Below, piece by piece: positions 6,691-29,024 of a stretch of 37,018 nucleotides of DNA. The notes below the pieces were generated by a model. That model worked only from the letters and a program-made list of their open reading frames with translations, did no database searches and was not told the origin of the DNA. This DNA is from a virus: IMG/VR virus record IMGVR_UViG_3300030333_004126, positions 1 to 37,018 of that record. One strand, written 5' to 3'. Each line of letters opens with the position of its first letter. The stretch's first letter is position 1. The position numbers and the translations under genes are program-made.

Positions 6691-6757
6691 TTGAGAGAGA
6701 TGTAAGTCCCGAGAAGACACTTAGCATATAATGCGATAACGTAGGCTTTCTCTCTCT
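6691..6757 (+). ncRNA. Stem-closed structured element A
   Basis: GAGAGAGA (about 6693-6700) pairs with the TCTCTCTC run ending at 6757 and closes about 48 bases. Inside are GTC/GAC with a 7-base loop (within the phrase AAGTCCCGAGAAGACAC) and the hairpin GCAT-ATA-ATGC at 6724-6734. It shares the phrase AAGTCC-(4)-AAGACA-(2)-TAGC with the element at 7318-7400. The region 6650-7062 has no convincing gene. Confidence 0.45.
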
Positions 6758-6768
6758 AAAAACCTGGC

Positions 6769-6823
6769 TGGCATACCCTGGGCGGAGGATTAATACACAT
6801 GTGGTCCAAAGCAATGTATGCCA
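6769..6823 (+). ncRNA. Stem-closed structured element B
   Basis: TGGCATAC (6769-6776) pairs perfectly with GTATGCCA (6816-6823), closing 39 bases that contain the palindrome CACATGTG. It lies directly between elements A and C with only a few bases between them, so the three form a tandem structured block. Confidence 0.4.
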
Positions 6824-6825
6824 AG

Positions 6826-6960
6826 AATTAAATGAGAGTCAAGATATTAGCCTCACGAAGTTGGGTGCGCACCTGAATACCAGTTGAGCATATTATTTTC
6901 AACTCTGGTCGTTTGTAAAACTAATCATACGTGGCGGATTAGCACGACTCTCATTAAATT
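6826..6960 (+). ncRNA. Cloverleaf-like structured element C
   Basis: AATTAAATGAGAGTC (6826-6840) pairs with GACTCTCATTAAATT (6946-6960) at 14 of 15 positions. The closed domain holds three further local pairings: the palindrome GGTGCGCACC (6864-6873), CCAGTTGA 6880-6887 with TCAA..CTGG 6899-6908, and CTAATC 6921-6926 with GATTAG 6937-6942. This gives a long closing stem with three arms. It is not a tRNA: the arms have the wrong sizes and there is no T-loop sequence. A further pairing (ACCAG/CTGGT, around 6970-6995) continues towards the Ubl gene. Confidence 0.5.
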
Positions 6961-7062: not shown

Positions 7063-7308
7063 ATGCCTAGTCAAACAACACCAGTATTCTACCTAGACAG
7101 TTTTACAAGAGGTAGAGTTACTCAACTTAATGTATCAGATTACGCTACATTAGGTGCTTTATTAGAGGCTGAAAACATTTCAATGGCTAACGCTGTTATA
7201 ATGTTTAAAGACAAAAATGGAAACTCTAAAAATGTAGCAGCTAATACTGCTATAGAAGAAGGTGATTCTATTGATGTACAAAATGCATCTAATAAAAGTG
7301 GTAAATAA
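7063..7308 (+). CDS. Ubiquitin-like beta-grasp protein (Ubl)
   Basis: 81 residues from ATG 7063, with an AAGAAAGGA SD site 9 bases upstream. The predicted order is strand (VFYLDS), strand (RVTQLNVSD), helix (ATLGALLEAENI), strand (AVIMFKD) and a final NTAIEEGDSIDVQNA. This fits the compact beta-grasp fold of ThiS/MoaD and of the prokaryotic ubiquitin-like proteins, where GDxI/V before the last strand is typical. The tail is NKSGK, so the Gly is followed by one Lys rather than being terminal. Neighbouring E2-, JAB- and E1-like genes support a conjugated modifier rather than a sulfur carrier. Conjugation would probably require removal of the last Lys, for which the JAB protein is the obvious candidate. 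Family assignment is from pattern and context and needs a profile search. Confidence 0.72.
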   Translation: MPSQTTPVFYLDSFTRGRVTQLNVSDYATLGALLEAENISMANAVIMFKDKNGNSKNVAANTAIEEGDSIDVQNASNKSGK

Positions 7309-7317
7309 CCATTAACC

Positions 7318-7400
7318 ATTAAAAGAGAGGTATGGGAACAGTATGTATAATCGCTGTGTAATAAGTCCTACTAAGACATCTAGCGCACCTCTCTTTTAAT
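7318..7400 (+). ncRNA. Stem-closed structured element D between Ubl and E2 genes
   Basis: ATTAAAAGAGAGGT (7318-7331) pairs perfectly over 14 bases with ACCTCTCTTTTAAT (7387-7400). The 55-base interior holds ACAG/CTGT around TATGTATAATCG, and GTC/GAC with a 7-base loop inside AAGTCCTACTAAGACATCTAGC, which matches element A. It fills the gap between the Ubl stop and the E2 SD site. It could set the ratio of the small Ubl to the enzymes, for example by terminating or processing the transcript; no long T-run follows. Confidence 0.5.
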
Positions 7401-7422
7401 ACAAAGAGAAAAGAGGTAACAA

Positions 7423-8976
7423 TTGAAAGAACAATTAATAGAATTATTAAATACACTCTTCCAAAGAGACAATCAAGCTATTACTGATATAGTAGAAAAG
7501 TTTGATTATAAAGAGGAAGATTATGTAAGACCACCTGAAAATGTAGAAGAATTAGCTGAAAGTTTATTAGAAATAAACCAACCAGATATAAATTGTGCAT
7601 TCAGTCACGGTCATATTCATGCAGAAGAGACAAAAAGCAATGGCTTAAAATTACCAGAAGGTACTGTTGAGCTATGGTTCAAGTTCTTTGATGTAAGAAC
7701 AAAAAGAAAAAAGATATTTAGAACAGGTGATTATTATATGAGATTAATAAACACAGGTTTTGATAAATGGAATTGGTTATTTTATATTAAACTACCAAAA
7801 GTAGATGGAGAAACACTTATAACTGAATATGCTTTAGCACAGCATCCTCATATAAGCAGAGGCCAAGCTTGTCTTGCGGGTATGGAAACAGGTATAAGAG
7901 CATCTATAAATAACTATAATTTTAATGGATTTTTATGGAGAATGAGAACATTCTTAGATTCATGGAATTTTAGAAGTCCACATCATATGCCTGAAAGATT
8001 TGAATATCCTAGGATATTTAAATATGATGATATTAAAATAATGTTTGATAAAATAGGAGAAAGTGGTAATCGTGTAATGCGAATGAATAGATGGTCATTA
8101 GACCATAATGCTATAGGTTATCAACTTGATTCATTAATGCTAACTTCAGCAAGAAAGAAAGCATACGACCCTGAACCTGCTTCTAGAGCTTTATATCATT
8201 TAAATGTTGGCACACATTATTTAGATGGAGATAAAGTAGAATACAGCAGAATAAATAACTCTCATAATATATTATATAATTTAGCTCATTGGATAGAAGA
8301 GCATATAAATAATACTGAAGGGTTAACTATGAAAGAACTATTAGTTCTTGCTCATTATATGGTGAATAACTTTATAGCAAAAGCTAAAATAGTATCTATA
8401 GATGTTCATGGTGTATGGACAGATAATCATTCTAATATGTCAGCAAGTTGGTATAGAGCTGTTGAATCTTGGTATCATTATAGAGATACGATAAATGAAA
8501 AACAAACTGCGTTTAGTACAAAACATAGTTCTTATTTATGGTATTTAAATAAACAAGAAGACAATCCTGATAGTTGGGAACAATGTAGAGATATGATTAA
8601 TGAAATACATTCTATAAGAGATTCAGCTGAAAACTATAGGAATGATTTAGAATATGATGAACCATCTTTTACTAGAGTTAGAAGAACTGTCTTTAATGAA
8701 TTAACAGGAATTTTCAAAGATTTAAATGATATTGAATTTGAAAATGAAAGTGAATTTATAAGATGGGTAGATGGATGGATATTAGATGCTGGTAATTCAA
8801 GTAATATAGATGATATAATGAACAAATATCAAGAAAGATTTTTAGAAATAAAGAAAACTCTTGATGGAATTTACAATGAACTAATAATAGAATATCACGA
8901 AACAGAGCTAAGGAGGCTTACAAATGGCAAAGAAAGAAGACAACATACAGTGCAGATTGAAAATCTCAATCTATAA
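7423..8976 (+). CDS. E2-like ubiquitin-conjugating protein with long C-terminal extension
   Basis: 517 residues from a TTG start preceded by AAGAGGT; no better ATG is nearby. An E2-type core lies at about residues 40-190. The active-site phrase is HPHISRGQACL: H141-P142-H143, G147 and Cys150 match the eukaryotic E2 pattern HPN-x4-G-x-ICL. It is followed by a helix and FLDSWNFRSPHHMPE, which resembles the LLxxPNxxSP region of E2 proteins. Known prokaryotic E2 families (Prok-E2 A-E, including the PRTRC B type) occur beside JAB and ThiF genes, as here. The remaining 320 residues are mostly helical, rich in Trp, Tyr and His and unrecognised; they could bind the substrate. The gene overlaps the JAB gene by 53 bases, implying coupled expression. 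Confidence 0.78.
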   Translation: MKEQLIELLNTLFQRDNQAITDIVEKFDYKEEDYVRPPENVEELAESLLEINQPDINCAFSHGHIHAEETKSNGLKLPEGTVELWFKFFDVRTKRKKIFRTGDYYMRLINTGFDKWNWLFYIKLPKVDGETLITEYALAQHPHISRGQACLAGMETGIRASINNYNFNGFLWRMRTFLDSWNFRSPHHMPERFEYPRIFKYDDIKIMFDKIGESGNRVMRMNRWSLDHNAIGYQLDSLMLTSARKKAYDPEPASRALYHLNVGTHYLDGDKVEYSRINNSHNILYNLAHWIEEHINNTEGLTMKELLVLAHYMVNNFIAKAKIVSIDVHGVWTDNHSNMSASWYRAVESWYHYRDTINEKQTAFSTKHSSYLWYLNKQEDNPDSWEQCRDMINEIHSIRDSAENYRNDLEYDEPSFTRVRRTVFNELTGIFKDLNDIEFENESEFIRWVDGWILDAGNSSNIDDIMNKYQERFLEIKKTLDGIYNELIIEYHETELRRLTNGKERRQHTVQIENLNL

Positions 8977-9805
8977 AAAGATAAAACATTTACTAATGTT
9001 ATATCCAAGCACAGAATGGTCTGGAGTTGCTTTTTATAAAAAGATAAATCCAGATAAATTTGGTTATGCAACTAAATGGGAACTTGTAGCATTTTATCCT
9101 ATTGATTTAGGTAGTAGTGCTGCTACTGAATTTAGTGGTGAAGACCAAATAGAAATGATTCAGAAAGCTTATGCTAAAAATCCTAAACTAAAAGAATGTT
9201 ATAAAGGTTTGATACATAGTCATCATAATTTAGGTGGCGGAGCATTCTTTAGTGGGACTGATAGAGGACATATGGAAGAAAACGCTAATCAGTGTGGTTA
9301 TCCATCTTTAGTAGTAGCTGATGATAAAACTGGTAGTCCTTTTGCATTTTCATTTAGTTGGTTAGACCAAATGGGTAAAGTGCATTGGACTGAAGAAGAT
9401 AAAGGATATGTGTGTATTGACTATTCTGATTATAAACCTTCAGGTTTATTTGAAGAATGCCTTGATTCTTTAGAGAAGCAAAAGAAAAAGAAGGCTGCTA
9501 ACACACCTATGATTTATTATAATGGTCGTCAAGGTAGTTTGTTTAATACTGGCACATACAATAGAATGAGCTTGTATCAACCAACTACTAATGAATGGAC
9601 TGATGATTACTCAGATGATATAAAAGATAAAAAGTATCAAAAACTTCTAAAGAAATTTAGAGAAGCTGATGCTATTTATTTTGATTCTGATTTTCATCAA
9701 GACCCTGATTATGATAAAAAGAAACAAAATGCTGTTGATGCTGAATCTAAACTTGATGCATATTGTAGAGAAAAAGGCTACAATCAAGAGTTAGGATGGG
9801 TATAA
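8924..9805 (+). CDS. JAB/JAMM (MPN+) metalloprotease
   Basis: 293 residues; the start is fixed by AAGGAGG upstream and lies inside the end of the E2 gene. The zinc-protease motif is complete: Glu31 (STEWSGVAFY), His98-Ser-His100, then Ser110-Gly-Thr-Asp113 (HSHHNLGGGAFFSGTD). The spacing between the second His and Ser is nine residues instead of the usual seven because of a GG insertion. JAMM enzymes cleave isopeptide or peptide bonds after a Ubl C-terminal Gly. In this cassette it probably matures the Ubl precursor, reverses conjugation, or both. The C-terminal 120 residues are Tyr- and Asp-rich and unrecognised. Its stop abuts the E1 gene start with no gap. There is no sign of a tail-associated NlpC domain, which argues against a phage tail-assembly JAB. 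Confidence 0.92.
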   Translation: MAKKEDNIQCRLKISIYKKIKHLLMLYPSTEWSGVAFYKKINPDKFGYATKWELVAFYPIDLGSSAATEFSGEDQIEMIQKAYAKNPKLKECYKGLIHSHHNLGGGAFFSGTDRGHMEENANQCGYPSLVVADDKTGSPFAFSFSWLDQMGKVHWTEEDKGYVCIDYSDYKPSGLFEECLDSLEKQKKKKAANTPMIYYNGRQGSLFNTGTYNRMSLYQPTTNEWTDDYSDDIKDKKYQKLLKKFREADAIYFDSDFHQDPDYDKKKQNAVDAESKLDAYCREKGYNQELGWV

Positions 9806-10555
9806 ATGGCAGATAGATTCTTAAGGAACAAAGACCTAATTGACCAAAAGAATCTTGAAGAGCTTACAATTATAGGAGCTGGTGGTGTAGGGTCCGCGCT
9901 AATACTATCAGCTGCTATAATGGGCTTTAAAAAGATTCATGTATGGGACTTTGATGTACTTGAAGAACATAATTTAAGTACTACAATGTATCCATCTAGT
10001 TATTTAGGTGAATCAAAAACAGAAGCAGCTAAAGCTATGGTAAAATACTTTGGTTGTGAAACAGAAATAATTGAACATGATAGGTTTGGCTATATGGATA
10101 GCTTAACACCATGTACAATGATGGCTCCAGATAATATGGAAGTTAGAAAAATGGTATATATGAATTGGATACGTACACCAAACAGGAAAGTTCTTGTAGA
10201 TGGACGTATGGGTGCATTGTCAATGGATATTCACACTATTGACGCACTTCATGACAATTATATGAGTAATTGGAAACCAAGTAGAGATATACCTGATTTA
10301 CCTTGTACTGCAAAACATACAATATTTACAGCTAATATAATAGCTGGCATAATGTTGTCACAGATATTTAATGTCTTGCATCAAAGGTCATATTATTCGT
10401 ACATTTGGAAGTCGTTAGCACCGTATATGACTAAAGAATACGGTAAAGTAAACCCTTTAATTAAGGAGAATAACAGTGATAAAGAAAGAGAAACGCAAAC
10501 CAGTGTCTCTCAATCCCAAAGTACTTCTATTATACGGAGCACCCAAAGTAGGTAA
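9806..10555 (+). CDS. E1/ThiF-like Ubl-activating enzyme
   Basis: 249 residues. A Rossmann-type ATP site is clear: GAGGVGS at residues 24-30, then VWDFDVLEEHNL (Asp48, Asp50, Asn56) and Lys71 in ESKTEA. This is the ThiF/MoeB/E1 adenylation signature. The usual Arg after Asn (NxxRQ) is replaced by Thr (NLSTT), which may alter the mechanism. Cys167 in DLPCTAKH, ahead of the helix TANIIAGIMLSQ, is in the place of the catalytic or thioester cysteine region and is the best candidate. No rhodanese or second domain is present. The enzyme would adenylate the C-terminus of the Ubl and pass it to the E2. The last 27 codons overlap the Sak4-like gene in another frame. Confidence 0.92.
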   Translation: MADRFLRNKDLIDQKNLEELTIIGAGGVGSALILSAAIMGFKKIHVWDFDVLEEHNLSTTMYPSSYLGESKTEAAKAMVKYFGCETEIIEHDRFGYMDSLTPCTMMAPDNMEVRKMVYMNWIRTPNRKVLVDGRMGALSMDIHTIDALHDNYMSNWKPSRDIPDLPCTAKHTIFTANIIAGIMLSQIFNVLHQRSYYSYIWKSLAPYMTKEYGKVNPLIKENNSDKERETQTSVSQSQSTSIIRSTQSR

Positions 10556-11147
10556 AACTACTATGCTCTCAAAACTAGAAGACTGTTTGATTGTAGATAC
10601 TGAAAAAGGTACAAATATGCTTGAAGCATATGTACAAGAAGTAAATAACCGAGAAGAGTTAATCCAAACTCTTAAAGATGCTATGGAAGGTCACGATTTT
10701 AAATACATAGCTATAGATACTATCGATAAAGTTGTAGAATGGGCTGAAAAGGCTGTTTGTGCAGAATATGAAGTAGCATCTATTGCTGATTTAACATTCG
10801 GAAAAGGTTATGCGTTAGCTCGTGAGAAAGTAATGAATACTATCAATGCTTTTAGAGACTGTTGTGACCATTTAATTATCGTTGGACACAGAAAGGTTGC
10901 TAGGGCAGTCATAGATGGCAAAGCCCTAGTTGAACCTGAATCTTTAGATATAACTGGTAAGCTGAAGAATTTGATTATGTCAGATTGTGATGCTATCGGT
11001 TATGTCTTAAGAGAAGACGATAAACTAATGGTTTCATTCAAAGCAGATGAATCTATAGAAGCAGGTAGTAGATGTGAACACTTACGTGGCCAATGCATAG
11101 AATTTGATTGGTCTAACATATACAAAAAAGAAAGTGAAGGTAAATAA
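10476..11147 (+). CDS. Sak4-like RecA-fold recombination ATPase
   Basis: 223 residues from a GTG start with AAGGAG seven bases upstream. Walker A is GAPKVGKTT (residues 21-29), and the hydrophobic strand ending in Asp81 (YIAIDTIDK) is Walker B. IIVGHRK follows as a sensor-like strand. Length and motifs fit the phage AAA_24/Sak4 family, single-strand annealing or recombination ATPases that act with a phage SSB. The next gene, one base after the stop, is of the type that usually accompanies Sak4. The gene overlaps the E1 gene by 80 bases, so it follows the conjugation cassette on the same transcript. Confidence 0.8.
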   Translation: MIKKEKRKPVSLNPKVLLLYGAPKVGKTTMLSKLEDCLIVDTEKGTNMLEAYVQEVNNREELIQTLKDAMEGHDFKYIAIDTIDKVVEWAEKAVCAEYEVASIADLTFGKGYALAREKVMNTINAFRDCCDHLIIVGHRKVARAVIDGKALVEPESLDITGKLKNLIMSDCDAIGYVLREDDKLMVSFKADESIEAGSRCEHLRGQCIEFDWSNIYKKESEGK

Positions 11148-11759
11148 ATGGCAATATTCAGGCCAAAAGGAACAAGTAGTGGTTCTAACTTTTATGGTAT
11201 AACAGAGATAGCTTTAATGGGTTTTGAAGATAAATCTTCAGAATTTGAATGGGCTGATGTATATCTTGATGTTGAAATAAAACAAAAAGGTAGTGATTAT
11301 ACTAAACAGTTAAGAATAACAGGTAATCTTGAAAAAGATGCTAATGGTAAAATAACTGGTGGAAATGCATTAAAAAGAATTTATGGATTCTTTGATGTAA
11401 TAGATGAAAAATCAGGATTAAATGTAGATGGTGAATGGGAAGATGCAGAAGGCAATAAAATTGCTGGTATAGCTGCACAATTAAACCAAGGTCACGCTGC
11501 ATTAGTAATGCCTGACCAAGAGCCAGATTATAACTATTTAGCATATGTTTATAAAGAGAAACCTAAAACTCCTGGAGCTAAAGTTTATTCTAGAGTATTT
11601 TATAGAATACAAAAGAATGATGAAGATGGAAGAAGAAAGCTTGAGGAAGATGTTAAATGGTTCAAATCAAAAGGCTTTATAAAAGAAGCTAGTGAATCAG
11701 ATATGGCTACACCTGAACAGACTGTAGAAATGTCTTCAAGTGGTATTGGAAACTTATAG
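11148..11759 (+). CDS. Putative ssDNA-binding protein, Sak4 companion
   Basis: 203 residues, starting directly after the Sak4 stop with AAGTGAAGG upstream. The N-terminal 150 residues look beta-rich (FEWADVYLDVEIKQKG, YTKQLRITGNL, ALVMPDQEPDYNYLAYVYKE), as in an OB-fold protein. The acidic, Ser-rich tail (SDMATPEQTVEMSSSGIGNL) resembles the disordered acidic tip of SSB proteins that recruits partners. Proteins of this size and position follow Sak4 in many phages. The SSB role is inferred from context and composition. The stop overlaps the primase GTG start (TAGTG). Confidence 0.6.
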   Translation: MAIFRPKGTSSGSNFYGITEIALMGFEDKSSEFEWADVYLDVEIKQKGSDYTKQLRITGNLEKDANGKITGGNALKRIYGFFDVIDEKSGLNVDGEWEDAEGNKIAGIAAQLNQGHAALVMPDQEPDYNYLAYVYKEKPKTPGAKVYSRVFYRIQKNDEDGRRKLEEDVKWFKSKGFIKEASESDMATPEQTVEMSSSGIGNL

Positions 11760-13537
11760 TGCACGACTATGTTGAAATAGCAGTAGGTAGCCCTCGTCAC
11801 AGAGGGCGACTTATTGCAAAGAAAGATTTAGTCAACTATATTAAATCTGATACACCATTATTTAGGTCAGTTTATTTATATACTAAACAAGCAGTAGATT
11901 ATGCCGAATCAAACGGTGGGCTAAAGAATTACTTTGGCGAAAGAAGTATAGACTGGATATTGTTAGATATAGATAAATCAGGTAATAGTGATGAATATAC
12001 ATTAGAAAAAGCAAGAAATATAGTATACAGATTAGATGACTTAGGTGTCGATAAAGATAGCGCAATACAGGCATACTTTAGCGGCAGTGGTTATCATCTG
12101 GCTTTACCTAATAGTATATTTAACTTTCCAAGTAGTGATAATATACATTACTTGGTAAAAGGGACATTAAAGGGAATTTTTGGAAATGATATAGATAGTT
12201 CAATATTTATGAGAACTGGAATATATCGTGTTCAGCACACAATAAATAAAAAAACTAACTTACATAAGATACCATTAACAGTTGCAGAGTTATTAAATAA
12301 AGATGCACAAACAATACAAGAATGGGCTAAAGAACCTAGGCTTGATTATGGTTACAGTGAATTAGTTGGAAATGGTGAGCTAGAAGACAAAATTGTACGA
12401 AAAGCTCCTAGAATGACCCAAATAAGCAAAGTAGTTGAACCAAGGGACGTCATCCCATGTGTACAAGAAATGTTGACAAATGGGCCCCAAGAGGGCAATA
12501 GAAACCAAACGCTTATAAGAATAGCGTCACATTTCTTTAGACATGGTATACCCTCAGAATATGCAAAAACCGCTATTTTACACTGGAATAATAACAGTTT
12601 AAATGAAAATAGTGTGGTCGAAAAGGTTGAGTATGTTTATAATAGAGGCTATAGATTTGGTTGTCAAGATGAAATAATGTTAAAGCATTGTAAAACTAGA
12701 TGCATACATTTCAAAAGAAAAGACTACTTAATAGATGTTATGAGTTCAGATGATTTACAAGCAAAGCTAGAGGAAAGAATGTCAGCAGATTTTGCAGGAC
12801 GTTCATTACCTTTATCTGAAATGTTAGGTGTTAAAGAATCTGACACAGAGATATATCCAGGTGAGTTAGTTACTATATTTGGACCAACAGGTTCAAGTAA
12901 AACTACACTTGCTCAGAATATAGCTTTAGGTGTCGATTTTGCTAGTGATGATATTAATCCTGATTGGCAAATACCTACACTATATTTATCTTTAGAGTTA
13001 TCAGCTTGGTATATGCATAGACGTAATATGCAAATAGTATCAGGTTTAACAAAAGAAGAGATAAATGACAATCCTAAAGATGTTTATAAAAACAATAAGG
13101 ATAAGTTAAATCATATGGTAATTCAAACAATACCTCCTACATTGGAGCAAATACAAGCAAAGGTTAAAGAATTAAGACCAGCTTTAGTAATAGTGGATTA
13201 TATAGATTTAGTTGAAACTCCACCTCACGTTAGAGGAGAGTATGAACAAATTAAATATATATCACACTCACTATCATCTATGGCTGTTAATAACGATTTA
13301 ATTATAATTCAGGTATCCCAAGTATCTAGAGAGTATTCTAGAAACGAAGTTCTTGACTTATATGCTGGTAAAGGCTCTGGTGCAATAGAAAACGCATCAC
13401 GTAAAGTGATAGGCTTGAATGGTCAAGCTAATTCATCAAATAAAACACTTGAAGTATTAAAGAATACTGATGGTGAATTGTTTAAAACTGAATTAGAATG
13501 GCAACCAAGCTTTAGATTAAGGAGAAGGTATGATTAA
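11759..13537 (+). CDS. AEP primase-DnaB-type helicase fusion
   Basis: 592 residues from GTG 11759. The N-terminal primase domain (about 1-215) has the archaeo-eukaryotic primase motifs: DxD at Asp70/Asp72 (WILLDIDKS), SGSGYH (108-113) and a later D-x-R-K region (DSSIFMRTGIYRVQHTINKK). Residues 225-320 form a helical linker with Cys302, Cys311 and Cys315. The C-terminal RecA/DnaB-type ATPase has Walker A GPTGSSKTT (375-383), Walker B ALVIVDY (Asp480) and a Gln-containing strand IIIQVSQVSRE. Such proteins make primers and unwind DNA at the phage fork. It is the core of the replication module. The stop lies inside the following small gene. Confidence 0.88.
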   Translation: MHDYVEIAVGSPRHRGRLIAKKDLVNYIKSDTPLFRSVYLYTKQAVDYAESNGGLKNYFGERSIDWILLDIDKSGNSDEYTLEKARNIVYRLDDLGVDKDSAIQAYFSGSGYHLALPNSIFNFPSSDNIHYLVKGTLKGIFGNDIDSSIFMRTGIYRVQHTINKKTNLHKIPLTVAELLNKDAQTIQEWAKEPRLDYGYSELVGNGELEDKIVRKAPRMTQISKVVEPRDVIPCVQEMLTNGPQEGNRNQTLIRIASHFFRHGIPSEYAKTAILHWNNNSLNENSVVEKVEYVYNRGYRFGCQDEIMLKHCKTRCIHFKRKDYLIDVMSSDDLQAKLEERMSADFAGRSLPLSEMLGVKESDTEIYPGELVTIFGPTGSSKTTLAQNIALGVDFASDDINPDWQIPTLYLSLELSAWYMHRRNMQIVSGLTKEEINDNPKDVYKNNKDKLNHMVIQTIPPTLEQIQAKVKELRPALVIVDYIDLVETPPHVRGEYEQIKYISHSLSSMAVNNDLIIIQVSQVSREYSRNEVLDLYAGKGSGAIENASRKVIGLNGQANSSNKTLEVLKNTDGELFKTELEWQPSFRLRRRYD

Positions 13538-16003: not shown

Positions 16004-16186
16004 ATGGATTTTTGTGATATATGCGGTGAAGAAATAGACCCATTGGAACCGTGCTTTAAAATAAGCCATGGGTTTTTAAATGTAGATAAATCATTTAGTG
16101 AAATGGTTTATATAAATATCCACATAGATTGCTGTAACGACGCTCAGTTGTTATCTAAAATATTAGATAAATTCGATAAAAATTAA
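16004..16186 (+). CDS. 60-residue zinc-binding protein, last early gene
   Basis: The N-terminus (MDFCDICGEEIDPLEPC) has Cys4-x2-Cys7 and Cys17, with His42 and Cys44-Cys45 (HIDCCND) near the C-terminus. These are consistent with one zinc site, though the spacing is not a standard ribbon. There is no SD site, so it is probably translated by reinitiation 8 bases after the previous stop. Its stop codon overlaps that of the convergent giant gene (shared bases 16184-16185), leaving no room for an intergenic terminator. Confidence 0.55.
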   Translation: MDFCDICGEEIDPLEPCFKISHGFLNVDKSFSEMVYINIHIDCCNDAQLLSKILDKFDKN

Positions 16187-19100
16187 TCTCTAGGAGCTTT
16201 ATAAACGGGATGGTAAGGAATATTATCTTTAAATTCTTTACGCTTTCTTTGAATATCACCATAAGGAAATCCTGTAAACTTCTCAACCATTCTATATGGA
16301 TTATCAAGAACATTGCCTTTAGCATAAGGAGAGAAATCTCTTGCTATTCTTCCAAAAGGAAACATTGTATAAATATGATAGTCAAGAAATTTATCATAGT
16401 TATCATCAGTTAAAGTTCTTAATATACTAAGAGGAACCCTAGCAATAGGTGGGGTAATCATTTGTAAAGGAGCTATCTTTGTAGGATAAGCACTAAAGAA
16501 AGCTTTATTACGAGTTCTTTCATCGCCAAATAACCATTCAGAAGTTTCTTTAAAATGATTTAAAGGAGCTGGTAATACATTTTCAAATAAAGACATAGCA
16601 AACACACTACCTAAAGCATATGTTAATAAATCAATTTGAGCAGTTCTTTTAAACTTTTCATATTCAGGAGTACCTTGACGATAACCTCTAATTCTAGCTT
16701 CTCTAATAACATCATTTCTAAATCTAGCAGAGTTCCAAGACCATAACTGGAAACGTGTCATAACTTTACCAAGAGCTGTTCTAGCAAAACCAGGACGATA
16801 AGGAGCACTATATAAGAATTGTGTAGCTTTAACACCTTTCTTAGCCATTTCAATTAAGAATGGGTCATCAAACTGAGTAATAGCTCCACCAAATCTTTCC
16901 CAGGCTTTAATATAATGAGACATAAAAGCATCTTTACGAAGTTGCATTTCTGGAACAGACATAAATTTAGCCGCAGCTCTAAGTATAGGAGCACCAACTT
17001 TATGTTTAGCAGCAATCTCTCTTAATGTAACCCCTTCTAATTCACCTTTATTATTAAGCTTTCTTCCAACGTCTTTTAAGAATGCTTTTGATTTAGCAGA
17101 TTGAAGTTCAGTTTGAAGCCCCCATTCATTTTGTAGCATTTCAGGGAATATACCTTGCTTTATAACAAAATCCATAATAGCTTGTTTATTTGTCCATTCA
17201 GGATTTATCGTTCTAAGGAAATTATAATCATAAACTTTTTTAAGAGCAGTAGCACCAACAGACTGAACTGTATGTAAAGAGCCACCAAATAAATTATTTA
17301 TCATAGATTTAGGATGAGCAAGTAAAGACATTAGCTCATATTTAGCTTCAAGATTAGACCATCTAGAAATATCTTGCAAACTATATTTCTCTTTACCTGG
17401 AATATCTTCTTTAATACCTAATGTTTTTGCAATTTTATTAACTTTATCTTTTACTTTATTATCAGCCCACCAAGCATAAGGAGTACCCTTTAATTTCATA
17501 CCTGGGTCATTAATCATATAATCTGGTATAACACTAGGATGTCCCATAGCATCTTGAACATATAATTTATAGTGGTCTGACCACCTATCTTTTAAACTTC
17601 TACCTGTTTTAGGGTCAAAATCAGTTATATGCCAATTCTTTTTAAATGCTTGATTATCATATTCTTGTAAAATGTCTCTTGATAATATTTGAGCTAATTG
17701 TTTAAAATATGTTTTATAAACATTTCTAGAATAAGTTTCAGCTACAGTAGCATCAATAGAGTGACCAGGTATATGACTTGTTCTTTGATGCATAGAACCT
17801 GTCATTTGATTAGCTTGAAACCAAGTAACTTTATCTGATTTATTTTGAGTTTTATCAGGGCTAGTATAATGGTCATAAGCGTCCCAATTTTCAGTACCAG
17901 TAATCCAATCACCTGTTAATGTTTTAGTACGCCACTGTATTTTATCTATCTCAGCATCCTTTTCACTTCTAGATAAATTAGATGCTTCAATCTTTTCTAT
18001 AGCTTGTTTTAAAGCTTTAGTAGCTATCCCTTTATCAAAGAACATATGAGGCCAATAACCATCTTTTATTTCTCCAGTAAGTTTAGGTATAGGAACTAAT
18101 TTTCTTAATTCACCTTTACTCATCTTTTTATGCTTATGCTGTAATTGAACCATCATAGAACGAGCAATAGCACGAAGACCATCAATTCCAAAGTCAGTAG
18201 TTATATCTTCACCTCTTTCATAAGCTTTATATATATCTCTAACAAATCTTTTATAATCATATATAGGTTCTTGAGGTTCTGGTTCTAAAAAATCAAAATA
18301 CATTTTTTTACCCTTATATCTTTTATGATAAGAATCTAAAAGTTTAGGGTCTCCAGATATAATTTTATACATTTGTTTAAAATGATTTTTATAAATAGAC
18401 TCAATCTGTTCTACAATTTGTTCACCAGTTAATTCAACACGTTTAACTTCACCATTTACAATTTTACTTACTCTATATTTATTATCTTTTAAAGTATTGT
18501 AATCATAAGTTTCCATTTCATTTTTATATTCTTTAAGATAATTATCAGCCCATTGTTTACCTAATATTTTATCGCCACTTAAATTCTCACTTACATTACC
18601 TTCAGCTTCTATTTTACGTACAGCAATACGTCTTAAACCCTCACCATCTTCTAAAGAATCAATAAACTCAAGTTTTTGTCTTAACTTTCCAACCTCTTCA
18701 TCACCTTTACCTTGAGCTTTATCCATAGATAAAGTAACTGCATGTTGGAGTTTTTCTGTAAAATTAGTAGGAATCAGTGTATCACCTCTAGATACTTCCC
18801 CAGCTTTAGTTATGAATAAACCTCTTTTTTTCATAAGCTCAATATCATATTTCATTGTCTCTCTACCAATAGATAAAGGGAATAAATAAGCATACCTTTT
18901 TTTAAGAGTAGGTGTCTTATCTCCAAATAACCTTTGCCAAATACTACCTCTTTGAATTTCTTTAAAGTAATTATTTAAATCAACAAAGTCTTTATATGTT
19001 AAAGCATTAAAATCTTTCTCAAGAATACCTCTTACAAGTTCGTTTAAATTCTGACCTATTTTACCATTATAAAATTTTAAGTTTTCAACAAGTTCAGTAA

Positions 19101-22100
19101 GCTCTTGTCTAATTTTCTTTGGAACTTTTGATAAATCTGGCTTACCATGAAGACCTTCATAACCTGTAGTTGTATCTTCTAATATAGTTTTATCAGGTAA
19201 ATCCTTTTCTACCATATCACCTTTGTTTATAGTTTTAATAAAAGTATCTTCAATAGGAGTTTTTTCATAAGCTCTATTCATTATAGTAGAGTAATCGCCT
19301 ATAAAATCTGTAACACTTTCTGAATCAACATTCTTAGATGATAAACCTAACTTACTAATAGAAGTTTCAGTTGTTCCATCTCTAAATGTACCTAACATAA
19401 GCATATCAAATATCTTTTGAGCTCTAGCATTAGGTAATGTAGCTTTAATTTTAGCTATTTCAGCATCTACTTGAGCTTGGTCTAAAGTAGTACTTCTTTC
19501 TTTCCCTTTAACAACAAGGTCACCAAAAGCTTCCCTTACAGCTCTTTCACCTCCTTTAGGCATTTTCATACCAGCAATATCACCTACAGCTTCTTCTTCT
19601 CCAATACCTTTTCTTTGAAGATAACTGTTACGCCTTAATCTACTAACATCTTTAAGTATTTTTTCAAATAATGTCCTATTTACTTCCACACCATCATAAT
19701 AACGATAAATTTGCCTAAAAGATACCATATCGCTAACATCTTGAGTAACTATATCTTCTGCAAATTTAACTAATTCTTTTAATCTATCTTTTCTATATTC
19801 CTCACTATTAATAACATTTTTTCTACCATATTTACTATCAATTTTATAGTTCCAGCTATTACCTTTAGCAAAAGGACTACCTTTAGAATACATTATAGTG
19901 TTAAATACTTTTAAATCCTTTGCAGCTGATTCTAAATTATGTTTTTTCCACAATTGACTTTTAACAATAGCTTTTAAAACAGGATTAAATGGTACATCTA
20001 AATTATTTAAAAGCTCCTTAAACTCAGGTAATTTATTTACAATAGAATTATGTTCAGCATACATTTTTATTAAATTTTCAATATTTATATTTCTAAATGG
20101 ACTATCATATAAATCAACACTATTGGCTAATTTACCCAATTTTAGTAACAAAGTATTTCTTACCTTATCTAAACCTAAACCATCAAAATCATTAACATAT
20201 CTAGTTTTTTCTTTTATTGATTGAGCATCCCAAGAGCGATTGTTTTGATAATCCCTGCCATATAAAGCTGAGTTTATATCTGCTATTTGGCCTATTATAC
20301 CATTTTTATCTCTCAGTAAAGTTACTACCTCTTCTGGAGAAGCCTTTGTTCCATCTATCTTAATATTAAAATAAGCCTTACTTAATTTATTAAAGTAGTC
20401 AGTATATCCAGTTAAACCAGCTACGTCAAGTGGGTCTGATGTGAAAGCAATCATAGAAGAAGCAAGTTGTCTAGCATCTGCTATTTCTTTAGCATCTGTT
20501 TTAGCTTGTATAGTAACCTTTATTGGTTTCATTTTCTTTGTTTTAGGGTCAGGTCTCCATACAATATACTCATTTATTCCATTAGGAAGACTTAAAATAG
20601 AATTATGTGCAGCTTTTATTACCTGAGCCATAGAAACTGTACCGCCAAGTAGATTACGACCATCTACTGCCCTTTCAGATATATCTTGTCTCCACATACT
20701 ATCATATTGCCATATTTTACTATCTCTAGAATCTGGGTTTATACCTGTTGTATTTTTACTATCCTGAGTTGTTAAATACTCTTCATAAGTCATTTTAGTG
20801 CCTGGAACAAATCCTTTTTTTCTATCAGGAATAGTTCCGTCTTTTGCTAAATATTCATCTTTATTTTTATGAAACTGTTCAATCCATTCTGGTTTAAAAC
20901 CACTTCCTTTACCACCTTTTCTTCCACCAAAGAATATAAATGCTTCATCACCATCAAGGTCAGCACCACCTTCTGCTCTCATAGCTCTTGAGTGCATAAG
21001 TATTCCATGTCCATCTCTTCCAGTAAATCCAGCAAATTCCATAGCTTGGGCTCCACTTACTGAATCCATAGGCACACGTACTGTTAAAGCTCTTAGTATC
21101 TTTTTAACATCTTTATTCTTATATAATTCACCACCTTTTTTACTATAAGCATTCCAAAGCTCTTCTAATGTAGTTTCTTTCCATTTACCTTCCAAATGAG
21201 TCTTTATAGGCATCTTTCTGTATGAGTTATCTAAAAAGAACACATCGTCTCTAGTATTTAATATATCAAATTTAGGGTCTGATTGAAGGAATTTATCGTA
21301 ACCACGCATTCTACCAACACCACTATTACCTATTTTTGGTTTAGATATAGTGTTGAATACATAGTTTCTTATAACTTGAAATCTATATGGTCTTATATAT
21401 TTATGCAATAAAACAGGATTAATATTGCCTGGTCTACCTAATAGTTTTTCTTTTTGAGACCATTTATTAGCAGCTTCTATTATTCTATCTGTAGCACTGT
21501 TAAATTCATTTATATTACTTAGTACTTTTTCAGCCTCATCTGGAGTAAGCTCACCTTCAGCCACTTTTTCAGCAATACTCTCTTTATTTAACTTCATTAA
21601 CCTCATATAAGCCACATCAGTAAAATCAGTAGGACTTTCATTTATAGCTTTTAAAAGATTTTCTATGCTTAACTTATCAACATTTTTTTCTAATATACTT
21701 AATAATGTTTTAGAATTAGGATTTTCTAAATATTCTTCAAAAACTTTATTATATTTATCTTCACCTTTATATCTTTTATATACTGTTTCATTAAAGAAAT
21801 CTTCTATCATTTTAACTGGAAATGATTTATAGGTATTCTGAGCCATAGCCATCAATAACTGTTTTGGAATACTGTGTTTATGAACACTACCATCAGGATT
21901 ATACCCAGCCATAGTATTACTTTGTTTTACATTGTATCCATATTTAATGTGCTCAACAGGTAGTTCATAAATTAAATTAGGGTCTTCTATAGTTATTTCA
22001 TTATTTTTATAATTATAGTTAGTAACTTTTCTATCACCTCTTTGTTTAACAGCTGATTCTTGCATTATCATATGAATGCCAGCTTCACGCATAGCCTTAG

Positions 22101-24978
22101 AAGCTTCTGGACCAACTGAATGCATCATATATTTACCAAGTAATGCACCATTTGTAGCATCTGGACTTACAATAAATGATTTACTTTGCCCATCACCTGG
22201 CATACCACTATCTTTTATAAGAGTTTTTAAATAATTATCTTCAACAAGTATCATACCATCAACATGTTCTCCATATTCAGTATTTTTACTGTTTTTATTT
22301 AAAGGTTTTATTCTAATTTTTGTAGGCTTTCCATCTTTATCTTTAACATATAAAGCATCATCTAAATCTTTAGTTATAATATATCTAGCTTTACCCTCAG
22401 CTGTAGCTGTTAAAAATTCAGTTGGTAATTTAGAAGCGTCTTTTAAGTTTGTTAAATAAGCATCATAAGAATCACTTACAAATTTAGCATCTGCTTTCCA
22501 TGTAGGGGTAAACCATATTTGTTGCCTTTTATTCCAAGCAGTAGCATTTTTAATATAACCTTCGCCTTTAAATAGTTTATTTAATACTTGACTATATTCA
22601 GTAGCAGTTTTAGGTTTAAATCCATTTAAAGAAATATCCCACATTATATTACTTAAATACTGGTCTTCAGCTTCCTTTTTTGTAAAGTATTTATTTCTTT
22701 TTATAGCTTGTTTATAATAAATTTCATTATCACCTTCTTTTAAAAATTCTTTAAACCAAGTATTAATGTAATGTCTAGAACTACCTTTTTTCATATTAGG
22801 GTGTTTTTTGATATATATAATTATATCATTATCACCTTTACCACCAAATGCATACATATCTTGCTCAGCCATTTTCTTATGTATTTTCTTAATAAATTGC
22901 TCATAAGCATCTCTTCCAAACTCTTTATTTTTGTTCATAAGATATTGCCTATACTGACTTAATGTTAAATCTTTAAACTCACCTTTTGGTCCTCTAATTG
23001 TAACATTATCAAATACTATATGCGGGTCTTCTTCTACACCTGTAAGTTCTTCATATTTTTCTTGTATTATTTTCTTAGGTTCTAAACTTTCTTTTCTATT
23101 ACCAGCAAATGTAAAACCATCTTCGCCTCTTACTTCAACTTGTTCTTGACCCTTTACCCAACCTATTTGACCTTGATTTCCACCTTTAACATTTAAATAT
23201 CTAACAGGTTGCCCAAAGTTTTTACGAGTTAACCACTGCCTTAAATTGTCTTTAGTAGCTTCATCTATTTTTATCTTAGTATTTTCTTCAGCTTGTATTC
23301 TATCTTCTATTTCTTTTGCTAACTCATCGACTTCTACACGTTGATTCTTTTTTAAATATTTATCTTGTCTAACTATATTATCTATAAGATTTGTTAATCT
23401 TACAATTTCATTACGCTTAGTTATAGGACTATATTCAGGTTTATTCCAAATATCCTCCATTTTTTCAGTAACTATAATTTCTGATTTCCTAAGTAAATCC
23501 ATACCAGAAGACATACCAATATCGTTACCATCATTAGCTCTAGATTCAGTTTTAATCTCACCTGTTTCTTTTTCTATATACTGATAAGGCTCTAACTTAA
23601 GTAATTCTTGTTCTCTATTTCTTAAATCAACTAATTCACCTTCAAGTTTAGCTATTCTATCTTCTTCTAATATCCTTTCAGAGCCCTCTAGTTTATCTAA
23701 ATTATTTTTTCTAGCTGTTAAATCTTCTATTACTGTTTTTCTTCTTTCAAATATATCATTAAATTCTTTTTCAGTTTGAGCAGCTAAACCAATTCTTTTT
23801 TGCTCTATAGGTTCTTCAGTTATTTTAACAAACTCTTCCCAAGCTTTTTTAGATTTTATTGTTTTACCTGGTTCAATACCCATTTCTGTCATAACTATCT
23901 CTTGCATAGCAGTTCTTGCAGCTTTATCTTCTGGGTCGTAATGAATACTTTCAGGGTCATTCATTGTTTTAATAACTTCTTTTTGTATTTCTGGGTCTAA
24001 TTCATTCCAACCTTTTACAAGTTCTGGGTCATTAGTAGCTCTTAATTTAGGGTCACCTTTTTTATCTCCTGAACCATAAGCTTGTTTTTCCTTTTTAACA
24101 AAAAATTCTGCAGCACCTTTTTGTTTCCAACCAACAGCACCACCACCAAAATATGCGCCTAATAAATATTCATATACCTGTTCAGGAGTAGTAGCTCCTC
24201 TTTGTGTAGCTGGAAGACCTTGGAAAAGAGAACCTGCTGTAGCTCTTAAAGCATAACTTGCTGCACCCTTACCTGGAATCATATTACCTAAAGCACCAAA
24301 AGCAGCACCAAATTTAGCTCCACCTATACCACCTTCTATCATTGCATCTACACCATGTTGCCAACTACTAACAGCACTAGCAACACCTAATTTAAATCCT
24401 TCTTCTGCAACATGTTTAGTAGCACCACTAGTAAGGAATTTAGCTACAACTCCAGTAGCATCGGCTCTACCACCTATAGCAGTTTTCATTACAGGTCCTA
24501 TAACTTTAGCAGCTTTTTTAGTTGCATACTCACCAATACCAAGAGGAATAGAACGAACACCAGCTATAGCATTAGCTTGTCTAGATAAACCTAAAAGCTT
24601 TAATGGTTTAGCTAACATATTAGGAGCAAAACCTAATAAATGCCCCACATTACGTGCTATTGCCTCATATTCATTATCAGGTGGGTCTACTACATTAAGT
24701 GTAGTAAAACCTTCTAATAAACCACCACCAAACTGCTGTAATGCTTCACCTATACTAAAATCACCTTCATAGAAAGCAACATTGTGATATATAGCATGCT
24801 GTTTTATAGTTTCTATATGTTCTGGTTTGTACCTTTTAGGGTTTCTTTTGTAACCTGAAATTATTTTCTTTAGTTGTTGTTTTGAGTATCTTGGAGTAAA
24901 ATTTTCAGGCGTAGCAGCCTTATCTCCTTGGAGTTCTTGATAATCATCTTGGTAAAGACCATAAGGATTTATGGCCAT
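16183..24978 (-). CDS. 2931-residue virion protein with DPBB RNA polymerase signature
   Basis: The largest gene of the window. Residues about 100-290 are Gly/Ala-rich and hydrophobic (GGIGGAKFGAAFGALGNM), typical of ejected inner-virion proteins that cross membranes. A coiled coil follows (about 390-480). At 1340-1344 is DLDGD within GGADLDGDEAF, preceded at about 1300 by RVPMDSVSGAQAMEFAG. This matches the RAPTLHR...NADFDGD arrangement of the catalytic double-psi beta-barrel of cellular-type RNA polymerases; the three Asp would hold Mg2+. About 410 residues earlier, GDGQSKSF (Lys933) may belong to the second barrel. The C-terminal third is helical. Giant single-chain polymerases with this fold are packaged in crAss-like phages. 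Virion location is inferred from the operon. Confidence 0.68.
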   Translation of the reverse strand: MAINPYGLYQDDYQELQGDKAATPENFTPRYSKQQLKKIISGYKRNPKRYKPEHIETIKQHAIYHNVAFYEGDFSIGEALQQFGGGLLEGFTTLNVVDPPDNEYEAIARNVGHLLGFAPNMLAKPLKLLGLSRQANAIAGVRSIPLGIGEYATKKAAKVIGPVMKTAIGGRADATGVVAKFLTSGATKHVAEEGFKLGVASAVSSWQHGVDAMIEGGIGGAKFGAAFGALGNMIPGKGAASYALRATAGSLFQGLPATQRGATTPEQVYEYLLGAYFGGGAVGWKQKGAAEFFVKKEKQAYGSGDKKGDPKLRATNDPELVKGWNELDPEIQKEVIKTMNDPESIHYDPEDKAARTAMQEIVMTEMGIEPGKTIKSKKAWEEFVKITEEPIEQKRIGLAAQTEKEFNDIFERRKTVIEDLTARKNNLDKLEGSERILEEDRIAKLEGELVDLRNREQELLKLEPYQYIEKETGEIKTESRANDGNDIGMSSGMDLLRKSEIIVTEKMEDIWNKPEYSPITKRNEIVRLTNLIDNIVRQDKYLKKNQRVEVDELAKEIEDRIQAEENTKIKIDEATKDNLRQWLTRKNFGQPVRYLNVKGGNQGQIGWVKGQEQVEVRGEDGFTFAGNRKESLEPKKIIQEKYEELTGVEEDPHIVFDNVTIRGPKGEFKDLTLSQYRQYLMNKNKEFGRDAYEQFIKKIHKKMAEQDMYAFGGKGDNDIIIYIKKHPNMKKGSSRHYINTWFKEFLKEGDNEIYYKQAIKRNKYFTKKEAEDQYLSNIMWDISLNGFKPKTATEYSQVLNKLFKGEGYIKNATAWNKRQQIWFTPTWKADAKFVSDSYDAYLTNLKDASKLPTEFLTATAEGKARYIITKDLDDALYVKDKDGKPTKIRIKPLNKNSKNTEYGEHVDGMILVEDNYLKTLIKDSGMPGDGQSKSFIVSPDATNGALLGKYMMHSVGPEASKAMREAGIHMIMQESAVKQRGDRKVTNYNYKNNEITIEDPNLIYELPVEHIKYGYNVKQSNTMAGYNPDGSVHKHSIPKQLLMAMAQNTYKSFPVKMIEDFFNETVYKRYKGEDKYNKVFEEYLENPNSKTLLSILEKNVDKLSIENLLKAINESPTDFTDVAYMRLMKLNKESIAEKVAEGELTPDEAEKVLSNINEFNSATDRIIEAANKWSQKEKLLGRPGNINPVLLHKYIRPYRFQVIRNYVFNTISKPKIGNSGVGRMRGYDKFLQSDPKFDILNTRDDVFFLDNSYRKMPIKTHLEGKWKETTLEELWNAYSKKGGELYKNKDVKKILRALTVRVPMDSVSGAQAMEFAGFTGRDGHGILMHSRAMRAEGGADLDGDEAFIFFGGRKGGKGSGFKPEWIEQFHKNKDEYLAKDGTIPDRKKGFVPGTKMTYEEYLTTQDSKNTTGINPDSRDSKIWQYDSMWRQDISERAVDGRNLLGGTVSMAQVIKAAHNSILSLPNGINEYIVWRPDPKTKKMKPIKVTIQAKTDAKEIADARQLASSMIAFTSDPLDVAGLTGYTDYFNKLSKAYFNIKIDGTKASPEEVVTLLRDKNGIIGQIADINSALYGRDYQNNRSWDAQSIKEKTRYVNDFDGLGLDKVRNTLLLKLGKLANSVDLYDSPFRNINIENLIKMYAEHNSIVNKLPEFKELLNNLDVPFNPVLKAIVKSQLWKKHNLESAAKDLKVFNTIMYSKGSPFAKGNSWNYKIDSKYGRKNVINSEEYRKDRLKELVKFAEDIVTQDVSDMVSFRQIYRYYDGVEVNRTLFEKILKDVSRLRRNSYLQRKGIGEEEAVGDIAGMKMPKGGERAVREAFGDLVVKGKERSTTLDQAQVDAEIAKIKATLPNARAQKIFDMLMLGTFRDGTTETSISKLGLSSKNVDSESVTDFIGDYSTIMNRAYEKTPIEDTFIKTINKGDMVEKDLPDKTILEDTTTGYEGLHGKPDLSKVPKKIRQELTELVENLKFYNGKIGQNLNELVRGILEKDFNALTYKDFVDLNNYFKEIQRGSIWQRLFGDKTPTLKKRYAYLFPLSIGRETMKYDIELMKKRGLFITKAGEVSRGDTLIPTNFTEKLQHAVTLSMDKAQGKGDEEVGKLRQKLEFIDSLEDGEGLRRIAVRKIEAEGNVSENLSGDKILGKQWADNYLKEYKNEMETYDYNTLKDNKYRVSKIVNGEVKRVELTGEQIVEQIESIYKNHFKQMYKIISGDPKLLDSYHKRYKGKKMYFDFLEPEPQEPIYDYKRFVRDIYKAYERGEDITTDFGIDGLRAIARSMMVQLQHKHKKMSKGELRKLVPIPKLTGEIKDGYWPHMFFDKGIATKALKQAIEKIEASNLSRSEKDAEIDKIQWRTKTLTGDWITGTENWDAYDHYTSPDKTQNKSDKVTWFQANQMTGSMHQRTSHIPGHSIDATVAETYSRNVYKTYFKQLAQILSRDILQEYDNQAFKKNWHITDFDPKTGRSLKDRWSDHYKLYVQDAMGHPSVIPDYMINDPGMKLKGTPYAWWADNKVKDKVNKIAKTLGIKEDIPGKEKYSLQDISRWSNLEAKYELMSLLAHPKSMINNLFGGSLHTVQSVGATALKKVYDYNFLRTINPEWTNKQAIMDFVIKQGIFPEMLQNEWGLQTELQSAKSKAFLKDVGRKLNNKGELEGVTLREIAAKHKVGAPILRAAAKFMSVPEMQLRKDAFMSHYIKAWERFGGAITQFDDPFLIEMAKKGVKATQFLYSAPYRPGFARTALGKVMTRFQLWSWNSARFRNDVIREARIRGYRQGTPEYEKFKRTAQIDLLTYALGSVFAMSLFENVLPAPLNHFKETSEWLFGDERTRNKAFFSAYPTKIAPLQMITPPIARVPLSILRTLTDDNYDKFLDYHIYTMFPFGRIARDFSPYAKGNVLDNPYRMVEKFTGFPYGDIQRKRKEFKDNIPYHPVYKAPRD

Positions 24979-27902: not shown

Positions 27903-29024
27903 TTAACTATCATAAACTACGGTTACTACTGGCCTTAAATATACACTAGACCCATCAGTACTATCTTCTGACATTCCAGTTACAAGCAAAGACTCTCCAG
28001 CAGTAAATACTTTTGCTGTAGAATCAAGCCCTCCATTATCTGCTAAAGACTTATAATAGGTTGTATCACCAGGGTCAGTAAATGTTATTCTAGCTATATG
28101 GTCTAATGCTACAGATGTTAAAGCTGAACCAGTATCAGCAATAGCATCTACTTTCCATAAATCTACATCAACTTCACCATTTGCATTATCCCATTCACAA
28201 TCACAAACAAATCCAGTTACAGTACCAGATTCAGGCATCATTAAACAATATTTAACATAATCTACACCTAATGTAACATCTGCAGTATCTTGTCCAGTAT
28301 GTATACCGCTACTTGTACTTTTAACCCAATAACCTGGATAACCAGTAATATAATTATCAGAAGTACCTAAACTATACCTGCCAGCAAAATCTGAAGAAAA
28401 TACCACTTTACGTTTAATAGCTTCTGTATCACTTAAAACCTGCGCTCCTGTTCTATATTTTACATTATTTGAACCATCTAAAACTAAAAATTTATCAGGG
28501 TCAGAATCAGCATTTTCTACTGTAGTCATTTGTAAAGCTGATTGTAATATAGTATTTCCTGTAGATTCTATCTTTAAATTACCAATACCTTTTATAGTAG
28601 GCGTAGCTACTTGTCCAGTTTTTCTTTTAGAATTATCTAAATCTATTATTAATCTTTCTAATCCTTCGTAACTATAATTCCAAGAACCAGCACTTTGACT
28701 CATCTGATTTCCTGTACGTGCAGAATCAGTCCCTACTGGGCCAAATGAGGAATTATTATCCTTATGCCAACCATCTTCCCCTCTTATATAAAAATCGTAC
28801 TCATTTTTACCAACTTTGTTGATTTTTATATCACCTTCTGAACCTTTATATGTCTCTGCATCAGCACTAGCAGATAAAGTATTTGTAGATTCAGTTAATT
28901 TGTTTAATGAATCTTGTAGTACTTCTAAAGCAGAATCTACTTCATATTTACCAATATCACCTTTTTTATTAAATTTATTTCGACCAAATCTTTTTTTGAA
29001 TAGTCTTTTAAATAATACTCCCAT
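27903..29024 (-). CDS. Putative tail fibre or tail-associated protein
   Basis: 373 residues. The start shares TAATG with the giant tail gene upstream. A very basic N-terminus (LFKRLFKKRFGRNKFNKKG) precedes a short coiled-coil region (DSALEVLQDSLNKLTESTNTL) and a beta-rich body: KIESTGNTILQSALQM, DKFLVLDGSNNVKYRTGAQVL and a C-terminal jelly-roll-like part. The phrase 'FLVLDGSNNVKYRTGAQVLSD' is typical of phage tail-spike or fibre stalks. A fibre that attaches to the neighbouring tail protein is the likeliest role. Confidence 0.6.
   Translation of the reverse strand: MGVLFKRLFKKRFGRNKFNKKGDIGKYEVDSALEVLQDSLNKLTESTNTLSASADAETYKGSEGDIKINKVGKNEYDFYIRGEDGWHKDNNSSFGPVGTDSARTGNQMSQSAGSWNYSYEGLERLIIDLDNSKRKTGQVATPTIKGIGNLKIESTGNTILQSALQMTTVENADSDPDKFLVLDGSNNVKYRTGAQVLSDTEAIKRKVVFSSDFAGRYSLGTSDNYITGYPGYWVKSTSSGIHTGQDTADVTLGVDYVKYCLMMPESGTVTGFVCDCEWDNANGEVDVDLWKVDAIADTGSALTSVALDHIARITFTDPGDTTYYKSLADNGGLDSTAKVFTAGESLLVTGMSEDSTDGSSVYLRPVVTVVYDS

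Follow-up and report, generated by a model that had tools for sequence, protein, structure and literature searches.

Gene organization of the cassette

Four adjacent open reading frames (ORFs) encoding a ubiquitin-like protein (Ubl), an E2-like protein, a JAB/JAMM metalloprotease, and an E1-like enzyme were found in the IMG/VR virus record IMGVR_UViG_3300030333_004126. The record is a fragment of 37,018 bases, and this whole stretch, as analysed here, is called the window. The genes lie within window positions 7063-10555, lead directly into a Sak4 gene, and likely form a working phage pathway of ubiquitin-like conjugation, as predicted from active-site motifs and structural models. An initial annotation, made from the bare sequence, had proposed these four consecutive genes. 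All of them were confirmed as ORFs, and the residues it had named were correct, i.e., Cys150 of the E2-like protein, E31, H98, H100, and D113 of JAB, and GAGGVGS of E1 (Table 1).

The E2 and JAB genes overlap by 53 nucleotides, JAB and E1 abut, and E1 overlaps Sak4 by 80 nucleotides. The TTG start of E2 is preceded by a conserved AGAGGTAA(A)CAA stretch. Features general to prokaryotic Ubl-conjugation operons were seen, i.e., a beta-grasp Ubl with a C-terminal Gly, the E1 residues GxGGxG, D, N, K, D, and crossover-loop Cys, and the JAMM residues E, HxH, S, and D.

Table 1. Features of the cassette and of the adjoining replication block (window positions)
Feature	Position	Strand	Length	Description
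Ubl	7063..7308	+	81 aa	Beta-grasp ubiquitin-like; ends in ...NKSG-K; based on ORF, alignment, AF2, Foldseek, and hhalign to crAss Ubl
E2-like protein	7423..8976	+	517 aa	TTG start; UBC-like core ~60-200; HPH141-143, Cys150; fast-evolving helical C-terminal region
JAB/JAMM metalloprotease	8924..9805	+	293 aa	E31, H98, H100, S110, D113
E1-like (ThiF family) adenylating enzyme	9806..10555	+	249 aa	Single domain; GAGGVGS, Cys167
Sak4-like single-strand annealing ATPase	10476..11147	+		Overlaps the 3' end of E1; lies after the cassette in most window-type loci
Protein adjoining Sak4	11148..11759	+	203 aa	No family match in scans
Primase-helicase (PriCT + DnaB C-terminal)	11759..13537	+		Same replication block
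Stem-closed putative RNA element, Ubl-E2 spacer	7318..7400	+		14 bp perfect stem; fold z -3.2

Ubiquitin-like protein

The Ser-Gly pair near the Ubl C-terminus (S79-G80) was invariant in 33/33 aligned Ubls, and the tail after it varied from 0 to 19 residues among the relatives. The window Ubl has no Gly-Gly terminus. The beta-grasp fold claimed from the sequence held in modelling. The AlphaFold (AF2) model had a predicted local distance difference test score (pLDDT) of 85, and the best PDB matches by Foldseek were SUMO, the Raf Ras-binding domain (RBD), the ThiS-like Mth1743, and TtuB, mostly at a probability of 0.9-1.0. In Pfam, Rad60-SLD was hit at 0.006, below cut-off, and several family members showed weak matches to TGS, ThiS, and Rad60-SLD. 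A fixed Gly followed by a variable tail, encoded beside a JAMM protease, resembles a processed modifier, and the conserved SG would be the expected JAB processing point.

JAB protease and E1

The JAB residues E31, H98, H100, S110, and D113 were invariant in 113/113 unique proteins. The assignment as a JAMM protease is upheld by these ligands, though the Pfam match to Prok-JAB (4e-4) was below the curated cut-off. The ThiF/E1 assignment agreed with the Pfam ThiF match (6.8e-15). G24, G26, D50, N56, K71, D109, and R114 of E1 were present in 110/110 sequences, and C167 in 109/110. All NCBIfam hits to ThiF/MoeB models were sub-threshold, e.g., 49 of 159 bits for the ThiF equivalog.

E2-like protein

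The E2-like proteins of the relatives ranged from 424 to 731 aa. H141, H143, and C150 were found in 50/50 full sequences and P142 in 96%, giving the motif HPHI..G.xCLG. Its spacing, HPHI..G..CLG, matches that of HPN...G.ICL in UBC. The AlphaFold model of 517 residues had a pLDDT of 88 and a predicted template modelling score (pTM) of 0.82. It comprises an N-terminal helix, a four-strand meander (82-138), the HPH motif (141-143), Cys150, and two helices (152-163 and 167-179), and this predicted order fits that of UBC.

The window E2 family was also compared with a UBC profile of five human E2 sequences. The hhalign E-value was 8e-5 with HPN...CL aligned, whereas control comparisons with JAB, E1, and Ubl gave 0.6-0.7 (JAB, 0.62). 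The UBC score was 32 against a mean of 11 for column-shuffled profiles, and 1/150 shuffles scored higher; with its score of 132, this single shuffle is probably an artefact of the program. The E2 assignment is probable because the motif, the predicted topology, and the profile comparison agree, though Pfam and PDB gave no match; it is the least certain part of the cassette. The original E2 claim was mostly upheld by the predicted topology and the alignment of Cys150, whereas Foldseek with the full 517-residue model gave no E2 hit.

Other searches gave little. The E2 profile had no match among PDB sequences, and a BFVD search with the model returned two unnamed viral proteins only. Among 296 genomes of the phylum of a Spirochaetia contig described below (L155), Prok-E2_D and Prok-E2_B were found none and two times, respectively, too few for bacterial profiles. 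The 517-aa protein was also considered as a second JAMM protease. This was unsupported for the window family; 45/150 shuffles scored as well against JAB.

Recurrence of the cassette in viral genomes

IMG/VR was scanned with JAB, which gave 257 loci (80 of these were kept), and with E1, which gave 75 loci. Gene order was scored with iterated hidden Markov models. The order Ubl-E2-JAB-E1 was found in 59 loci, and Sak4 was the next gene in 48 of these 59; the counts include some contigs fetched twice, and other loci end at contig ends. Because this order recurs in 59 loci, the gene association is not due to chance. The cassette is thus not restricted to one phage, as it occurs in the 59 IMG/VR loci and in crAss-like phages.

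Some loci showed variations. In L001, a close relative of the window, the reading frame is broken at 1462-1471 near the E2 C-terminus (460 + 52 aa), which is either real or a sequencing error. In L007, L025, and L029, a small ORF (~60 aa, DTIEIPFDSFKKLVRAFGEELF...) is inserted between JAB and E1. In the jumbo phage PhiXhv-12 of Xanthomonas (L004), a ThiF gene follows an 892-aa protein with no known family; this arrangement is possibly a third, rearranged version of the cassette.

Homologous cassette in crAss-like phages

In tblastn searches with JAB and E1, crAss-like Bacteroides phages and Flavobacterium phages were hit. In phi-crAss001, the cassette comprises gp79 (Ubl), gp78 (E2), gp77 (JAB), and gp76 (E1), placed between the DNA primase and uracil-DNA glycosylase (UDG) genes. 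The neighbours in crAss-like phages are primase, Sak4, UDG, resolvase, and exonuclease genes. The cassette genes are currently labelled as hypothetical protein, metalloprotease, and thiamine biosynthesis. Queries with Ubl and with E2 found 45 phage records apiece, with identical organism tallies, and the primase query found 98 records. The cassette is therefore linked, but it is not universal in the crAss-like group.

The block in phi-crAss001, related Bacteroides phages, and the Flavobacterium phage Fpv group has the same order, homologous proteins, KSG motif, and replication setting as the window. MAFFT alignment across the window and crAss groups misaligned the active site for E2 and Ubl, so group-wise alignments and profile comparison were used. 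By hhalign, the two Ubl families matched at a probability of 97.8 (E 1.1e-12), the alignment running through SG, and the two E2 families at E 1.9e-5, which 0/150 shuffles equalled. The protein before the crAss E2 has an N-terminal domain ending in a KSG-like motif in 39/40. The crAss E2, upstream of JAB, is mostly 370-460 aa and has HxH...CxG, with H180, H182, C198, and G200 invariant in 30 sequences. By profile alone its placement with UBC or JAB is not clear; it is called E2 because it is homologous to the window E2 family.

Differences were also found. The crAss-like Ubl is usually extended at its C-terminus by a long segment, unlike that of the window, and the crAss-like E2 has fewer residues, reads HSH, and carries a longer loop ahead of Cys. 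Sak4 does not immediately follow the cassette in the crAss-like phages, and an extra gene, absent in the window, occupies a conserved position after E1. In several of these phages this gene is the equivalent of phi-crAss001 gp75 (L158 11405-12217).

A whole crAss-type Ubl-E2-JAB-E1 set was also seen on a 6.8-kb contig (L155) of a Spirochaetia metagenome-assembled genome, the sole match of the JAB scan of genome contigs. It is probably a binned phage contig.

The crAss-like phage papers searched, a set with subscription papers and preprints outside it, had no mention of ubiquitin, ThiF, or MPN, and a search for crAss with ubiquitin gave nothing relevant. In the searchable literature, the kit of these cultured phages is unrecognised as a ubiquitin-like system.

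Comparison with known ubiquitin-like systems

By the models and architecture testable here, the cassette is not PRTRC, Bil, or CBASS Cap2. The initial annotation had likened it to PRTRC and Bil; the likeness in working stands, whereas membership does not, since no PRTRC model matched and the Bil architecture differs.

The BilABCD operon shares Ubl, E2, JAB, and E1 with the window cassette. BilA has two Ubl domains, BilD is a pseudodimeric E1 with a Cys domain, and in BilB the Cys is followed by conserved E/H/H (PMC11354881). In contrast, the window has a single 81-aa Ubl domain and one 249-aa adenylation domain, and its E2 has conserved His before Cys150 with no conserved E/H/H after it. The Bil genes belong to bacterial defence, whereas the window cassette belongs to a phage. 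The PADLOC BilD model aligned with residues 19-95 only of the window E1 (24 bits), and the PADLOC models had no detectable similarity to the window Ubl, E2, or JAB.

Like the cassette, the PRTRC plasmid system combines a small Ubl, a single-domain ThiF, JAB, and an E2. At E<=10, none of the four window proteins was matched by a PRTRC model of NCBIfam. As the initial annotation had observed, no ParB or other PRTRC genes were seen beside the cassette in family scans of this fragment, the neighbours being Sak4, primase-helicase, HNH, and exonuclease.

CBASS type II Cap2/Cap3 and 6A-MBL have E1/E2/JAB chemistry in common with the cassette, and the window E1 is weakly similar to the E1-E2 models. 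CBASS (cyclic-oligonucleotide-based antiphage signaling system) Cap2 is an E1-E2 fusion. The window, by contrast, encodes E1 and E2 as separate proteins together with a Ubl, and no CD-NTase was among the family hits.

In phage lambda, TAPI/TAPK represent a Ubl and JAB in tail assembly, and the Ubl is predicted to be JAB-processed. Prokaryotic Ubl systems were surveyed in 2006, and the passages of that survey on phages deal with tail-assembly Ubl/JAB (PMC1779556). The predicted processing of a phage Ubl is common to both, whereas lambda has no E1 or E2 and its genes lie in a tail-assembly context.

Proposed pathway

In the proposed pathway, the JAB protease would trim the Ubl tail and expose ...SG. 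E1 with ATP would adenylate the C-terminal Gly and carry Ubl as a thioester on Cys167, from which it would be transferred to Cys150 of the E2-like protein. The variable helical C-terminal region of E2 may serve as a built-in target selector replacing a separate E3. E2 would then attach Ubl to a target protein that is produced or encountered early in infection, and JAB may also remove it. The reading of the four genes as a conjugation pathway is supported by the conserved order, the invariant active sites, the SG and fold of Ubl, the topology and profile of E2, the crAss homologues, and the location in a plus-strand replication block.

Several points weigh against this pathway. Neither an E3 nor a reader protein was found, and the pathway is predicted from sequence and models. 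No E2 match was found in Pfam at E<=1 among 67 E2 proteins (37 window-type and 30 crAss-type). Foldseek of the full-length 517-residue model returned no E2 in PDB, with chance matches only, probably because the helical C-terminal region dominates the model. The window is a fragment without a close cultured relative. Moreover, E1 lacks the usual active-site Arg. Arg73 of MoeB contacts the gamma-phosphate (PMC12355090), and the equivalent position 59 is T/G/S/C/N in 108/110. Arg7 of E1, present in 108/110, may be the counterpart of the N-terminal Arg of MoeB-type E1s.

Sequence divergence and candidate targets

Identity between the window and its relatives L007-L025 was 91-96% for Sak4, 73-93% for E1, and 31-76% for E2. 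Within E2, the C-terminal region was 26-34% identical and the core 39-66% in all but the closest relative, e.g., 34% where the core was 66% and Sak4 96%. The nonsynonymous rate (dN) was below the synonymous rate (dS) in every computable comparison; therefore, all genes are under constraint. E2 appears to be either the most relaxed gene or the one most pressed to change.

The divergence of the E2 C-terminal region points towards a target that varies, possibly one of the host, and speaks slightly against a conserved replication protein of the phage being the principal substrate. Our leading candidate, held tentatively, is a protein differing between hosts or phages, i.e., a target of host takeover or counter-defence. 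Next as a possible target comes a phage or host protein that acts in replication or recombination, e.g., Sak4, its neighbour, or primase. The functions suggested in the initial annotation, i.e., modification of a host protein, action against a defence system, or modification of the phage's own virion or replication proteins, are likewise conjectural.

A narrower proposal, that Ubl is conjugated to the phage's own Sak4, its neighbour, or primase and tunes replication or recombination, is rather doubtful. SUMO and ubiquitin tune PCNA or Rad51 in such a manner, the E1 gene overlaps Sak4, and the crAss-like cassette lies among replication and repair genes. Gene neighbourhood alone is weak evidence for such a target, and the conservation of Sak4 beside so divergent an E2 C-terminal region would be unexpected if Sak4 were modified.

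Alternative functions

Ubl operons of bacteria are known chiefly for their role in defence against phages. The cassette may be a counter-defence device that competes with or reverses a host Ubl-based defence (Bil, CBASS Cap2/Cap3) and tags no targets of its own. Host defences with E1, E2, and JAB exist, the cassette is patchy in crAss-like phages (45 against 98 records), and E2 evolves fast. This is unlikely, as the cassette has its own full set of Ubl, E1, and E2, more than a deconjugase requires. Its Ubl, E2, and JAB have no detectable similarity to PADLOC models, and in two phage lineages it keeps a fixed place within the replication block, not in a variable anti-defence locus.

The 517-aa protein may be an unrelated enzyme, e.g., a divergent JAMM or metal site (HxH...C), in which case the cascade comprises Ubl, E1, and JAB only. 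The absence of Pfam and PDB matches favours this, as does the crAss version, which reads HSH, also JAMM-like, and is equally near UBC and JAB by profile. It is nevertheless improbable, since the window family is closer to UBC than to JAB, its motif spacing mirrors that of UBC, and the predicted meander, Cys, and helices suit the UBC order.

A sulfur-carrier system (ThiS/ThiF, MoaD/MoeB type, or phage tRNA/nucleoside thiolation), in which E1 adenylates Ubl to carry sulfur and JAB only matures the carrier, would suit the ThiF family of E1, its thiamine biosynthesis label in crAss-like phages, its sub-threshold ThiF/MoeB matches, and the ThiS-like matches of Ubl, but is very improbable, as it leaves unexplained a third, always adjacent protein with an invariant HPH...C motif, the scanned neighbours include no sulfurtransferase or rhodanese among family matches, Ubl does not end in GG as sulfur carriers do, and equivalog cut-offs were missed by >100 bits.

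For the conjugation pathway, we lean towards a broader view. A complete, dedicated Ubl pathway, with a Ubl family ending in -SG and an undescribed E2 family with a fast-evolving target-selecting region, would recur in the replication module of two or more phage lineages, among them the cultured crAss-like phages of the human gut, and modify host or replication proteins for the benefit of the virus. The full Ubl set is found here in phages, whereas the known bacterial operons serve mainly against them. It is probable that phages turn protein tagging to their own purposes. The phi-crAss001 block (gp79-gp76) makes phage Ubl-tagging of host proteins directly testable, as this phage is grown on Bacteroides intestinalis. 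A probable activity can now be assigned to four adjacent crAss-like genes that carry the labels named above, and a probable E2 family unrecognised in Pfam is added.

Neighbouring genes and putative RNA elements

The location beside Sak4 and primase genes, as first described, was borne out. The 203-aa protein adjoining Sak4 might, as a guess from position only, be its single-stranded-DNA-binding partner. The minus strand of the window encodes two giant proteins and other genes. The 2931-aa protein (16183-24978) has ADLDGD, like DxDGD of multi-subunit RNA polymerases, and is possibly a virion RNA polymerase, as suggested by this motif; it had no significant Pfam match and no match in phage records. 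The 2432-aa protein (29024-36322) had no Pfam or PHROG match. No major capsid protein, portal, or terminase gene was identified within the 37-kb fragment.

Putative RNA elements were seen around the cassette. In relatives, the 14-bp stem of the Ubl-E2 spacer is AAAAGAGAG/CTCTCTTTT in some and ATAGAC/GTCTAT in others, with a variable interior. More long-stem elements lie in the 400-bp gap upstream of Ubl (window 6826-6960 and 6768-6826), and stem-closed elements are inserted between JAB and E1 in other loci, i.e., L050 4098-4235, L035 1816-1885, L074, and L097. A small putative RNA, GUAAGUCCCGAGAAGACACUYAGC-hairpin-AACGUAGGC, was found at window 6692-6758, L010 1680-1745, and L033 ~1480-1550. 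The window copy matched no Rfam family at the gathering threshold. The stem closing this RNA differs in sequence between loci.

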